From an uncultured bacterium (GTDB lineage Bacteria > Cyanobacteriota > Vampirovibrionia > Gastranaerophilales > Gastranaerophilaceae): 43,054 bases of DNA. Positions 5,691 through 43,054 of this stretch are shown here, one piece after another. The notes beneath the pieces were generated by a model that saw only the letters and a list, made by a program, of their open reading frames with translations, did no database searches and was not told the origin of the DNA. How positions within the stretch are numbered: the first letter of the stretch is position 1; every line of letters starts with the position of its first letter. The DNA lies in assembly GCA_949293185.1 (NCBI GenBank), contig CASFCQ010000013.1, forward strand, positions 1 to 43,054, written 5' to 3'. The position numbers and the translations under genes were made by a program.

Positions 5691-6365
5691 ATGAAAAAAT
5701 ACAGTATTTTGATAGTAGAAGACCATTCTTTAACGAGATTCGGTCTCAGGACTGCGTTCGAGTCGGAAAAATGCTTTGACAAAATATTTGAAGCGTCTAA
5801 TGCTAAATCAGGTATAGCTCTTGCTCAAAAGGAGGCTGTTGATGCGGTAATTATGGACCTTGGGCTGCCGGATATGAATGGTATTGAAGCAACTAAAATT
5901 ATAAAAGAAAAACGACCCTCAACAAAAGTCGTGGTGCTTTCATCCCATGAACAAGAAGAAGATGTGCTAAAATCTTTGCATAACGGGGCTAATGCCTATT
6001 GTACAAAAGATATTGAGCCGGATAAACTGATTGATATCACTAAATCCGTGCTGGAAGGGGCAGCCTGGTTTGACCCTAAAGTCGCCGGATATGTTCTAAA
6101 AGCTGTAGGACAATCTGAGAACACAAGTAATGAAATAAAGGCAGAATCAGCGGAATCTGTCAAAACAAATGATATAAATCTTACAACAAGAGAAAAACAG
6201 GTGCTTGCATTGATTGTTGAAGGTTTAACCAACAATGAAATAGCTCAAAGGCTTGATGTGAGTATAAATACAACCAAGGCGCATGTCTGCAATATTTTAC
6301 AAAAGCTTGCGGTTAACGACAGAACCCAGGCAGCAATAAAAGCATTGAAAGATAATTTGATATGA
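5691..6365 (+). CDS. NarL/FixJ-family response regulator
   Basis: A 224-residue two-domain regulator. The receiver domain (1-125) has the acidic pair E10/D11, the phosphoacceptor D56 in VIMDLGLPDMNG and the switch residues VVLSS and K around 107. The LuxR-type helix-turn-helix (about 162-222) reads LTTREKQVLALIVEGLTNNE and then NTTKAHVCNILQKL. A linker rich in Ser and Glu joins them. No histidine kinase is encoded in this window, so the partner is elsewhere. It lies at the end of the operon with the GAF/HD-GYP and TPR genes and may link cyclic-di-GMP turnover to transcription; that link is inference. Confidence 0.9.
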   Translation: MKKYSILIVEDHSLTRFGLRTAFESEKCFDKIFEASNAKSGIALAQKEAVDAVIMDLGLPDMNGIEATKIIKEKRPSTKVVVLSSHEQEEDVLKSLHNGANAYCTKDIEPDKLIDITKSVLEGAAWFDPKVAGYVLKAVGQSENTSNEIKAESAESVKTNDINLTTREKQVLALIVEGLTNNEIAQRLDVSINTTKAHVCNILQKLAVNDRTQAAIKALKDNLI

Positions 6366-6411
6366 TTTTTTATATAGAGATTCTGCTGTATAAAAATTAA
6401 TATGAGCTTTG

Positions 6412-6465
6412 CATATACAAGAGTGACGAAAAAATCAATAAAATTGTGTGTCATCCTTGTATATG
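6412..6465. repeat. Inverted repeat after the response regulator gene
   Basis: CATATACAAG (6412-6421) and CTTGTATATG (6456-6465) are exact complements. GTGAC/GTCA can extend the pairing inside after a bulge. There is no T-run after it, so it is not a typical terminator. It may still mark the 3' end of the operon or belong to the repeat-rich zone that follows. Confidence 0.55.
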
Positions 6466-6501
6466 TTCAGTAATTTTGTGCCAAAGCAATAATCCAAGAC
6501 A

Positions 6502-6724
6502 GCGGCTCTGCCGCAGGAATACGATTAAACACTGTTAGTTTTTAGAGTGAATTTTGACAGACCGTAACGTAGTGGAGTGGATGCAAAATTTATTCTAAAA
6601 ATTTACAGTGTTTTTTGATTAGCGTTCTTTTCTCTTTCTTTGGTTCGTTTCTTTCTCTTTTTCTTTTCTCTTTCTTTGGTTCGTTTCTTTCTCTTTTGAT
6701 CGCAAAAAAGAGAAAGAAATGAAC
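6502..6724 (+). repeat. Hairpin repeat element, copy 1
   Basis: Order of parts: short palindrome GCGGC-TCT-GCCGC (6502-6514); shared block GGAATACGATT (6516-6526); long central hairpin; shared block TTTTGATTAGCG (about 6613-6624); pyrimidine-rich end with TTTGGTTCGTTTC; closing inverted repeat. The central hairpin has three nested stems: AAACACTGT (6527-6535) with 6605-6613, TTTTTAGA (6539-6546) with 6594-6601, and AATTTTG (6550-6556) with 6584-6590. The closing stem GTTCGTTTCTTTCTCTTTT (6679-6697) pairs with 6706-6724 around a GATCGC-containing loop. Copies at 6800-7014 and 42846-43054 share the outer blocks but have unrelated central stems. Confidence 0.75.
6625..6696 (+). repeat. Perfect 36-base tandem duplication
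   Basis: 6625-6660 and 6661-6696 are identical 36-base units, each beginning TTCTTTTCTCTTTC and containing TTTGGTTCGTTTC. The pyrimidine-rich end of repeat copy 1 has therefore been duplicated. The other two copies carry a single unit. Confidence 0.85.
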
Positions 6725-6799
6725 AAATAAAAAAACTAAACCTATAATTTATGTTTTCTAAACAATTGCTTTCTATAAACGTGTATTTTCTTTTTTTAT

Positions 6800-7014
6800 G
6801 TTCATTTTCTTTCTTTGTATTGCGCAGGCAAAGAAAGAAAACGAACCAAAAGAAAGAAACCGGCGCTTATCAAAAGAAACAGTAAAGTGTTTTATCAAAG
6901 ATTTTGCCACGACAAGCTGTGGTGTGGTCAAAATCTTCTCAAAACACAACTGTTTCTAATAAACTTCCATCAGGGCTTCGCCCTGAACCCCATACGGCTT
7001 ACACAGTAAGCCGT
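6800..7014 (-). repeat. Hairpin repeat element, copy 2 (opposite orientation)
   Basis: Read on the minus strand: palindrome ACGGCTTAC-TGT-GTAAGCCGT (7014-6994), palindrome CAGGGC-GAA-GCCCTG (6985-6971), the central hairpin, the block TTTTGATAAGCGCCGG, then the pyrimidine tract with GGTTCG and a closing 18-base inverted repeat (6800-6817 with 6829-6846, one mismatch). The central hairpin pairs 6875-6882 (AGAAACAG) with 6950-6957, 6887-6893 (GTGTTTT) with 6941-6947, 6898-6906 (AAGATTTTG) with 6929-6937, and CCAC with GTGG. It faces copy 1 head to head with about 75 bases between them. A 64-codon frame inside (6815-7009) is low-complexity repeat reading and is not accepted as a gene. Confidence 0.78.
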
Positions 7015-7070
7015 GTATATTATGGGTTAAAATGTAACAATCTTTGTCATTGAATTACGTAACATATACA

Positions 7071-7126
7071 ATTCCGAACTTGTTTCGGAATCTTACCACC
7101 GGCAAGACCCTGAAACAAGTTCAGGG
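7071..7126. repeat. Pair of inverted palindromes with core GAACTTGTTTC
   Basis: 7071-7091 is an 8-base stem ATTCCGAA/TTCGGAAT around CTTGT. 7108-7126 is a 7-base stem CCCTGAA/TTCAGGG around ACAAG. The second core (GAAACAAGTTC) is the reverse complement of the first (GAACTTGTTTC), so these are two oppositely oriented copies of one REP-like unit, with stem ends changed in a compensating way. GTGACA follows the second. They sit between the hairpin elements and the mla operon. Confidence 0.65.
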
Positions 7127-7202
7127 TGACAATTTTAGCTATTATTAGTGGAATTTGCTATATAAGTCCAAATTAATAAGTATTACAAAATATTGTAAAT
7201 TT

Positions 7203-7211
7203 TGATACAAT
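7203..7211 (+). promoter_or_regulatory. Extended -10 promoter for mlaE, start codon at the expected transcription start
   Basis: TGA-TACAAT at 7203-7211 is an extended -10 box. Seven bases then separate it from the ATG at 7219, and no Shine-Dalgarno sequence is present. The transcript is therefore predicted to begin at or next to the start codon (leaderless). Confidence 0.5.
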
Positions 7212-7218
7212 ATATTCC

Positions 7219-8046
7219 ATGAACCAATACAGAGTAATCCAAATCTTTAAACAAAGTGCCACCTATGCTCTCGGGAAAATGCTGCTTAATCAAACGCAAG
7301 ATTTTTTTGAAACACTGGGAGAAATTGGAATAAGAACAAGTCAGGTAATATATTTGACGATAAAAGCACTTTTTCAAAGACAAATGAAATGGAAACTCAT
7401 TATAGACCAGTGTTCAAGGTTTGCGGTTGACTCGCTTCCCATTACATTGACCATTGTGGGAATGGTGTCTGTAATTATATCAATGCAGGTCGCACCTGAA
7501 ATGGTTAAACAAGGCGGAGAAAAATTCGTTGGAGCGCTAATGGCAGTTGTTACAACACGTGAACTCGGAGCTATCATGTCAGGATTTGCTATTATTTCGA
7601 TGATAGGATCTTCTTATGCTTCGGAAATTGCAACAATGAGAGTAACAGAACAAATTGACGCCCTGAAGGTGCTAAAGGTCAATCCGATAGAATATCTTTT
7701 TATACCGCGTGTTGCTGCAGGTTTTGTGATGATGCCGGTTGTTGTGATAGTAGCTTCAACCTTCGGACTGATTTGTTCCGGAGTTGCGGCTTACTTAAGC
7801 GCTCATATAAGCAGGCTTAATTACATAAGTTCACTGTGGCAGGGGCTGTATCTAAAAGATATCTTTGTATCTTTAGGCAAATCCGCTTGCTTTGGTGCTG
7901 CAATAGCAATAATAAGCAGTACCTGCGGGTATCTTGCCTACGGCGGGGCTAAAGGTGTAGGTATTTCTACAACAAAAGCGGTTGTTTGGTCGTTTGTTGC
8001 TATTTGCATAATCGACTATATTTTCGCGGCAATATTCTTTTTCTAA
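7219..8046 (+). CDS. mlaE: MlaE-family phospholipid ABC transporter permease
   Basis: A 275-residue integral membrane protein of the MlaE/YrbE (DUF140) family. It carries the conserved stretch TTRELGAIMSGFAIISMIGS and the following SEIATMRVTEQIDALKVL, the family hallmark, with about five to six membrane helices. It forms the permease dimer that works with the MlaF ATPase and the MlaD substrate-binding ring to move phospholipids between the inner and outer membranes. mlaF follows after 35 bases and mlaD after that. No Shine-Dalgarno sequence is seen; the start follows an extended -10 directly. The presence of this system supports a diderm envelope. Direction of lipid transport cannot be read from sequence. 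Confidence 0.92.
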   Translation: MNQYRVIQIFKQSATYALGKMLLNQTQDFFETLGEIGIRTSQVIYLTIKALFQRQMKWKLIIDQCSRFAVDSLPITLTIVGMVSVIISMQVAPEMVKQGGEKFVGALMAVVTTRELGAIMSGFAIISMIGSSYASEIATMRVTEQIDALKVLKVNPIEYLFIPRVAAGFVMMPVVVIVASTFGLICSGVAAYLSAHISRLNYISSLWQGLYLKDIFVSLGKSACFGAAIAIISSTCGYLAYGGAKGVGISTTKAVVWSFVAICIIDYIFAAIFFF

Positions 8047-42704: not shown

Positions 42705-42841
42705 TTCTTGCCGGCAGCGAACCAGCCAAACGGAAATATATCGGCTTTCTGAGTCTTCTTGATAACAGATTCTTCGGCTAAAGCCTCAGAATTGTATATG
42801 TTATGTAATTTGATGTCTAAAATTGTAATATTTTTACTCAT
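42701..42841 (-). CDS. 46-residue ORF converging on pepA
   Basis: The frame encodes MSKNITILDIKLHNIYNSEA, then LAEESVIKKTQKADIFPFG and WFAAGKN, overlapping the pepA stop by four bases. Its start lies next to the ACGGCTTAC palindrome of repeat copy 3, with no ribosome binding site. AAG codons are more common than in neighbouring genes. It may be a real small protein, a gene remnant, or chance. No family recognised. Confidence 0.3.
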   Translation of the reverse strand: MSKNITILDIKLHNIYNSEALAEESVIKKTQKADIFPFGWFAAGKN

Positions 42842-42845
42842 ATAC

Positions 42846-43054
42846 ACGGCTTACTTTGTAAGCCGTAGGGGGTTCGGGGCGAAGCCCTGATGGAATACGA
42901 TTAGAGATTTTTAAATGAAAGAATGAAAATTTACCGGACCGATATTGTCATTTTGAGAGTGGACGGAAATTTTCGTTTCTGAATTTTAAAATCTCTTTTG
43001 ATAGCGCCAGTTTTCTTTTCTTTGGTTCGTTTCTTTTCTTTTGCCCGCGCAATA
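42846..43054 (+). repeat. Hairpin repeat element, copy 3 (cut by the window edge)
   Basis: Same order as the other copies: palindrome ACGGCTTAC-TTT-GTAAGCCGT (42846-42866), CGGGGC-GAA-GCCCTG (42875-42889), block TGGAATACGATT, central hairpin, block TTTTGATAGCGCC, then the pyrimidine tract with TTTGGTTCGTTTC and GCGCAATA at the edge. The central hairpin pairs AGAGATTTT (42903-42911) with 42988-42996 and GAAAATTT plus CCG (42925-42936) with 42964-42974. The closing inverted repeat would lie beyond the window. Confidence 0.75.

Follow-up and report, generated by a model that had tools for sequence, protein, structure and literature searches.

A MITE-like repeat of Gastranaerophilales with a conserved-fold hairpin and a predicted triplex-bearing pseudoknot

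The window, that is, the whole stretch of 43,054 nucleotides that was analysed, is one contig (CASFCQ010000013.1; C13) of a genome of 2.20 Mb in 95 contigs. The genes flanking the element described here (5691-8046) encode a LuxR/NarL-type regulator and an MlaE-like permease; they stand apart in the relatives where both were located, and the element occupies the position at which the local gene order differs from those relatives. Between them lies a two-armed MITE-like element of 615 bp without ORF (6457-7071). Its inverted termini (6460-6475 on the plus strand, 7053-7068 on the minus strand) belong to terminal inverted repeats (TIRs) recognized by a terminus pattern search of the genome, TTGTATATGTTCAGTAATT on the left (6457-6475, plus strand) and TTGTATATGTTACGTAATT on the right (7053-7071, minus strand). 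An earlier note had described three copies of a hairpin element, in which shared outer blocks (GGAATACGATT, TTTTGAT(N)AGCG, and a GGTTCG pyrimidine tract with a closing stem) surround unrelated self-complementary cores, and all of these are present in the sequence. The copies at 6502-6724 and 6800-7014 are nevertheless not independent, being the two inverted arms of one element within TTGTATATGTTACGTAATT-like termini, and the third is cut by the contig end. From the ends of the element inward, each arm consists of the TIR, P1 hairpins, the P2 core, TTTTGAT(N)AGCG and pyrimidine hairpins that face mid-element. Directly past the element, at 7072-7135, two further palindromic repeats were observed, TTCCGAACTTGTTTCGGAATC and AGACCCTGAAACAAGTTCAGGGTGAC.

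In the left arm (plus strand), the P1 hairpin GCGGCTCTGCCGC (6502-6514), which occurs identically elsewhere with cores A, B and D, is followed by the joining block GGAATACGATT (6516-6526), of which exact copies recur in the genome, and by a P2 core hairpin of family A, AAACACTGT..ACAGTGTTT (6527-6613; fold z −7.44, with compensatory relatives). The next block, TTTGATTAGCG (6614-6624), ends in AGCG (6621-6624), the putative pseudoknot strand a, whose GCG is complementary to the loop CGC at 6701-6703. Tandem units of tract 1 (TTTTCTCTTTCTTT), GGTTCG and tract 2 (TTTCTTTCTCTTTT), in which tract 1 is the exact mirror of tract 2, occupy 6628-6697; this 36 bp tandem duplication of tract 1-GGTTCG-tract 2 (6626-6697) is absent from the other complete copies inspected. 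The loop GATCGCAA (with a′ = CGC), the purine tract AAAAGAGAAAGAAA and TGAAC close the candidate triplex hairpin (6698-6724). The right arm (minus strand) carries the corresponding triplex-pseudoknot at 6800-6866, with strand a GCGC at 6863-6866, tract 1 at 6848-6859, GGTTCG at 6842-6847, tract 2 at 6829-6841, loop a′ GCGC at 6822-6825 and the purine tract with TGAAC at 6800-6817. It is accompanied by a P2 core of family C, AGAAACAGT..ACTGTTTCT (6875-6957; fold z −7.57, ten distinct relatives, 9 doubly changed pairs), and by P1-type hairpins, CAGGGCTTCGCCCTG and ACGGCTTAC..GTAAGCCGT (6972-7014), which recur at most B/C arms. The third copy (42792-43054, plus strand) is a single arm, composed of a TIR (42792-42810), P1 hairpins (42846-42888), GGAATACGATT (42892-42902), a P2 core of family B (42903-42996), TTTGATAGCG (42997-43006), tract 1 (43011-43023), GGTTCG (43024-43029), tract 2 (43030-43043) and a loop with GCGC.

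The element is dispersed. GGAATACGATT has 34 exact copies in the genome, whereas its reversed control has 1; arms of this type number about 34. Single arms without recognized termini occur as well, and related copies were found in 22 of 23 congeners. GGAATACGATT often stands a few hundred bases or less from contig ends and many contigs end within the element, from which it follows that the repeat breaks the assembly. The pattern-matched records that carry the element are annotated as Candidatus Gastranaerophilales. Other pattern-matched records, from unrelated organisms, are chance matches to the flanking words and do not contain the element.

Comparison of the three window cores with dinucleotide shuffles gave z scores of −7.4, −7.6 and −4.4, and none of 200 shuffles folded as well. 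The cores are unrelated among the three window copies, as the earlier note had stated, but they are not peculiar to each copy, since families A, B, C and D recur genus-wide; beyond the genus, P2 has yet other sequences. Thirteen representatives, drawn from the four families and the related G054/G111 cores, share one fold, in which a 9-bp outer stem is followed, after an offset of one nucleotide, by a mid helix (usually with A/T runs), a bulge on the 5′ side and an apical hairpin. In eight different outer stems, 72 of 72 pairs are Watson-Crick, compared with 46 on average and 58 at most upon column shuffling. Some trials of an arm-swap control also gave 72, since with only eight arms to redistribute the true partners may come together again. 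Within the core families, 19 pairs have changed on both sides, and family A has compensatory relatives in AAGCACAGT/ACTGTGCTT and AAACACAGT/ACTGTGTTT. The proposal that the fold and not the sequence is selected is thus borne out. Among mismatching P2 columns, G.T was found 19 times and A.C 4 times, and this asymmetry argues that one strand, in the form of RNA or of single-stranded DNA, is the one whose fold is judged. The comparison therefore supports selection acting on the fold of one strand in P2.

A given core was also observed in combination with more than one P1 hairpin and more than one tract type, which suggests that modules are exchanged between arms as well. To this extent the core swapping suspected earlier finds a counterpart, but the cores themselves are few and recurrent. 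A barcode-like or actively diversified cassette, in which an enzyme swaps cores for the sake of variation, would account for identical flanks around different cores. Nevertheless, the core families are few, common genus-wide and linked by compensatory change, and no diversifying enzyme was seen in the window. This idea is therefore not supported; it appears extremely improbable, and we have rejected it.

The pyrimidine tracts show a second regularity. The strand order is Y1-GGTTCG-Y2-loop-R, closing with TGAAC, in which Y1 is the mirror of Y2 and R is its complement; Y1 is therefore the exact parallel Hoogsteen strand for Y2:R. The positions of C vary by family (TTTCTTTCTCTTTT, TTTCTTTTCTTTT, TTTTTTCTTTTT, TTTTCTTTCTTT, TTTCTCTTTCTTTT and TTCTTTTCTTTT), and all three tracts change jointly. 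Perfect mirrors account for 18 of 24 distinct C-containing tract 1/tract 2 pairs, whereas on the same 24 pairs letter shuffles gave a mean of 1.2 (maximum 5) and partner shuffles a mean of 7.3 (maximum 16). In 22 of 28 tract types the mirror beats any direct alignment; five are ties and one (L071) is worse. Neither duplication nor inversion, by any process known to us, gives rise to mirror repeats. In most tract types, three matched tracts on one strand could thus form a triplex, as in PIT/TM repeats, and by the pairing rules the module would adopt a pyrimidine triple helix.

The bases just 5′ of Y1 are complementary to the hairpin loop, AGCG with CGC in the left arm and GCGC with GCGC in the right arm. 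The two sides covary in relatives, where GCGT/ACGC, GCTC/GAGC, TGTGC/GCACA, TACG/CGTA, TTGCG/CGCAA and GCCG/CGGC were observed as a/a′; further variants are TTCGCC/GGCGAA, GTCGCC/GGCGAC and CTTGAT/ATCAAG. When loops were re-dealt among copies, the longest a:a′ pairing in Gastranaerophilales was 3.73 against 3.37 ± 0.11 (1 of 2000 permutations as good; 0 of 2000 by hydrogen-bond score), and in non-cyanobacterial copies 3.47 against 2.47 ± 0.14 (0 of 2000). The pairing is lost in one lineage (G118/G093). As a pairs with the loop, Y1 must span the hairpin from top to base, parallel to the purine strand, and this is the orientation that a pyrimidine triplex requires. The covarying a:a′ helix and an L1 that matches the purine strand in parallel orientation are those of an H-type pseudoknot with a major-groove triplex. 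The mirror symmetry of the tracts and the loop pairing are the most distinctive features of the element, and both were absent from the earlier note.

A mirror polypyrimidine tract is also the classic H-DNA sequence, and the tract could act in double-stranded DNA as a fork barrier, supercoil sink or recombination hot spot, as has been proposed for bacterial TM motifs. Holder et al. (2015) tie TM repeats to instability in E. coli (PMC4666352), and the departure of gene order at the window copy, relative to relatives with both flanking genes located, would agree with such a role. For H-DNA the mirror tract alone suffices, however, so that the purine tract with its GTTC/GAAC clamp, the a:a′ pseudoknot and P2 would be superfluous, and the G.T excess is strand-specific. 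We consider action at the duplex level quite unlikely.

Virus-collection contigs were searched for GGTTCG..(T/C)GAAC and GGTTAC..GT(A/G)AC hairpins, and many copies with equivalent mirror and loop pairing were obtained. Two examples read GTCGCC-TTCTTTTT-GGTTAC-TTTTTCTTG-GCGAC and CCTTGAT-TTTTTT-GGTTCG-TTTTTTC-ATCAAG. Named carriers include Caballeronia (a/a′ GCTGC/GCAGC), Ilyobacter polytropus (TGCC/GGCA) and Diaphorobacter (GCGCG/CGCGC); candidate related places were also matched in Paraburkholderia, Variovorax, Chitinibacter, Pasteurella and Aeromonas plasmid records. A contig resembling a Bacteroidota prophage (L204) carries two outward-facing copies with the terminus TGGCCTGTGGATGTTCA. As judged from these matches, the predicted pseudoknot design recurs in at least four bacterial phyla. 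An TTGAGCGnAGCGAGTT-like motif stands 70-90 nt ahead of the pseudoknot in four loci (L141, L142, L252 and L292), a hint that P2 may also be common across phyla. In two IMG/VR contigs of 4.7 and 6.2 kb (L205, 1037-1073, and L206), whose genomes look like Microviridae (ssDNA phage), a mirror-tract hairpin, TTTTCTCTTTTGGTTCGTTTTCTCTTTTGTGAAAAGAGAAAATGAAC, was observed 37 bp upstream of a G2P-type replication protein gene.

It might be argued that palindromes simply pile up by insertion in a plain MITE/REP mosaic, with the symmetry as a by-product and no folded molecule under selection. Several copies are interrupted by nested hairpins and nested insertions are common (L010, L013, L049), modules are shuffled, and AT-rich tracts are of low complexity, all of which would suit a mosaic. 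Yet neither duplication nor inversion is known to produce mirror repeats, and G.T outnumbers A.C by 19 to 4. The covariation of the mirror symmetry and of the loop pairing, across many sequences and phyla, strongly disfavours this explanation. A mosaic of this kind is, in our opinion, very unlikely. As a separate observation, another hairpin repeat (CTTGCTTGAG..GGCGAGGTACGAGCCGTACATATCAGGATGCCC..) is nested in the candidate triplex hairpin at L013, L049 and L314 and also in copies of the window genome, where it lies between tract 1 and GGTTCG or in the loop, as palindromes within palindromes.

The termini point to mobility. The genome contains 70 matches to the TIR pattern and 8 to the control. 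Outside the TIR most ends read ..CGTCATTC or, in opposite orientation, ..CTCAGAA, and the flanks of the window element, GTCATCC and TTCCGA, fit the CGTCAT(T/C)C^TGAG target present at most other ends. Judged by these flanks, the element of this genome sits inside CGTC-tagged REP-like sequence, and 3-bp TTC/TCC repeats at many CGTC-REP targets are a possible duplication. Elsewhere in the family, the module is bounded by a TIR of a second type, GATAATATTTATTATGTA, with many inward pairs about 340-840 bp apart and none in the control; no consistent duplication was found at this second type. GATAATATTTATTATGTA forms the near-palindromic 18-bp ends of a MITE family common to at least four genera (G054, G013, G022 and others), of which some members carry the structured module and some apparently other hairpins. 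As inverted terminal repeats of two unrelated types bound a short non-coding element in inward pairs, the module appears to be a passenger of MITE-like elements. The earlier suggestion of a non-autonomous mobile element is supported by the paired inverted termini of two types, by the copy number and by the fact that most relatives lack the insertion seen in the window, a comparison limited by gene order that is not conserved in the genus. A related arm upstream of MlaE was seen in 1 of 19 loci read, where distances are large.

No transposase linked to the element was found, the neighbouring ORFs in other contigs being phage or ordinary genes. The only Y1_Tnp match in the genome (G000:C48) is at a locus without element or TIR, and a RAYT-driven REP was rejected because this sole Y1 transposase is unlinked to the element. 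At that locus (L061, G000:C48:9081-9443), the Y1 (RAYT-like) transposase gene has GTAG-type hairpins of its own on its flanks, ..GTAGGTTGGGGT..ACCCCAACCTA.., which bear no relation to the element. Single-arm copies show no orientation bias relative to the coding strand (19/39) or to the G-rich strand and GC skew (20/39), and copies are rare between divergent genes. Given this lack of bias, there is no indication that the element is transcribed together with its neighbours or enters ssDNA of the lagging strand; a fixed-orientation 3′ UTR signal and an IS200/IS605-like insertion into lagging-strand ssDNA were rejected accordingly.

A related possibility is that P1, P2 and the pseudoknot serve as the binding site of an HUH transposase (Y1/RAYT-like or Rep-like) on single-stranded DNA, similar to REP/BIME and IS200/IS605 ends, with no RNA role. 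The one-strand tolerance of G.T fits any single-strand recognition, the genome has one Y1 transposase gene, the element is inserted into REP palindromes, and the hairpin ahead of the replication gene in the two Microviridae-like contigs would also be in keeping. The elements, however, are bounded by inverted termini of 18-19 bp, a feature missing from IS200/IS605-type elements; replication-strand bias is absent (20/39); and the RAYT locus, with its own unrelated hairpins, has neither triplex pseudoknot nor TIR. Recognition of this sort is possible, though we consider it on the whole rather unlikely.

Several known systems resemble parts of the element. Telomerase RNA, SAM-II and preQ1-II are H-type pseudoknots with major-groove triples. 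The SAM-V riboswitch (PMC6061858) has the topology a-L1-b-a′-b′, and in such pseudoknots the U-rich L1 lies along the purine strand of stem 2, as would be the case here. Unlike those single regulatory or catalytic RNAs, the present module has up to 14 predicted consecutive triples and occurs in a dispersed repeat. The closest known kind is PIT/TM_ECO (Hoyne and Maher; Holder et al. 2015, PMC4666352), which comprises dispersed intergenic bacterial repeats with three matching tracts on one strand, capable of an intrastrand triplex, and with paired inverted copies too. In that account the TM_ECO triplex, found in proteobacteria, is G/C-rich, belongs to the purine motif and has loops of 3-6 nt, and triplexes in vivo could not be shown by Holder et al. 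By contrast, the present tracts are rich in T, follow the pyrimidine motif and are joined by a GGTT(CG/AC) linker; they come with a covarying loop pseudoknot, a feature that the paper's passages on TM_ECO do not describe, and Gastranaerophilales copies add the long P2 hairpin with TIRs. The TM_ECO consensus CCCTCNCCC..GGGNGAGGG..GGGNGAGGG, as given there (PMC4666352), is not matched by the T-rich tracts with GGTTCG/GGTTAC linkers. The pseudoknot and the hairpin are new relative to PIT/TM repeats.

With MITEs (Nezha, ERIC, RUP and others; PMC3733652), the element shares a non-coding nature, the size range of 70-850 bp, inverted termini, high copy number and intergenic location; it differs in that a structured module is common to elements with unrelated TIRs and present in other phyla. 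As in GTAG/CGTC REPs and the RAYT/TIRtron system (Di Nocera et al. 2013, PMC3733652), palindromes nest in palindromes, and the element of this genome lies in CGTC-REP-like targets; it differs from them in not being a tagged hairpin of 20-40 bp and in lacking a linked Y1 transposase. No Rfam match above the gathering cut-off was obtained in the window and 12 other loci, sub-threshold matches being mostly to miRNA models. The motifs GGTTACTTTTTG, TTGAGCGnAGCGAGTT and TTTTGGTTACTTTT were not found in a search of open-access literature, which returned unrelated papers only.

Taken together, we regard it as probable that the repeat is a MITE-like non-autonomous element whose payload is a structured module of P1, P2 and an H-type pseudoknot with a triplex-fitting linker. 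The payload would consist of one or two copies of the module, in the order small hairpin P1, long hairpin P2 and pseudoknot. In the latter, a strand a of 3-6 nt before tract 1 would pair with loop a′ of the GGTTCG-tract 2/purine-tract hairpin, and tract 1, as the linker from a to the hairpin, would run parallel to the purine strand and match as Hoogsteen strand (T.A-T, C+.G-C), so that it could occupy the major groove as a pyrimidine triplex of 5-14 triples. The MITE termini would serve DNA mobility through a transposase not found here, and the folded single strand would be what is recognized. The module would most likely act as a folded transcript or as a single-stranded transposition intermediate bound in trans, RNA being slightly favoured. 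More tentatively, and with rather less than even confidence, it may represent a pan-bacterial, undescribed structured nucleic acid (probably RNA), in which a pyrimidine triple helix, among the longest in nature, seals an H-type pseudoknot that follows a conserved-fold hairpin, the whole being spread through at least four phyla as a passenger of unrelated MITEs.

Few triple helices occur in nature, and selection for them in bacterial genomes is an open question. Three strands that change jointly and repeatedly in several phyla offer the sort of comparative evidence by which RNA helices were established, and the question of triplex selection becomes testable by existing probing methods. A large set of intergenic repeats that are so far unexplained would gain a folded target or transcript from the element family, and the same design in at least four phyla points to a widespread, undescribed mobile nucleic-acid structure.
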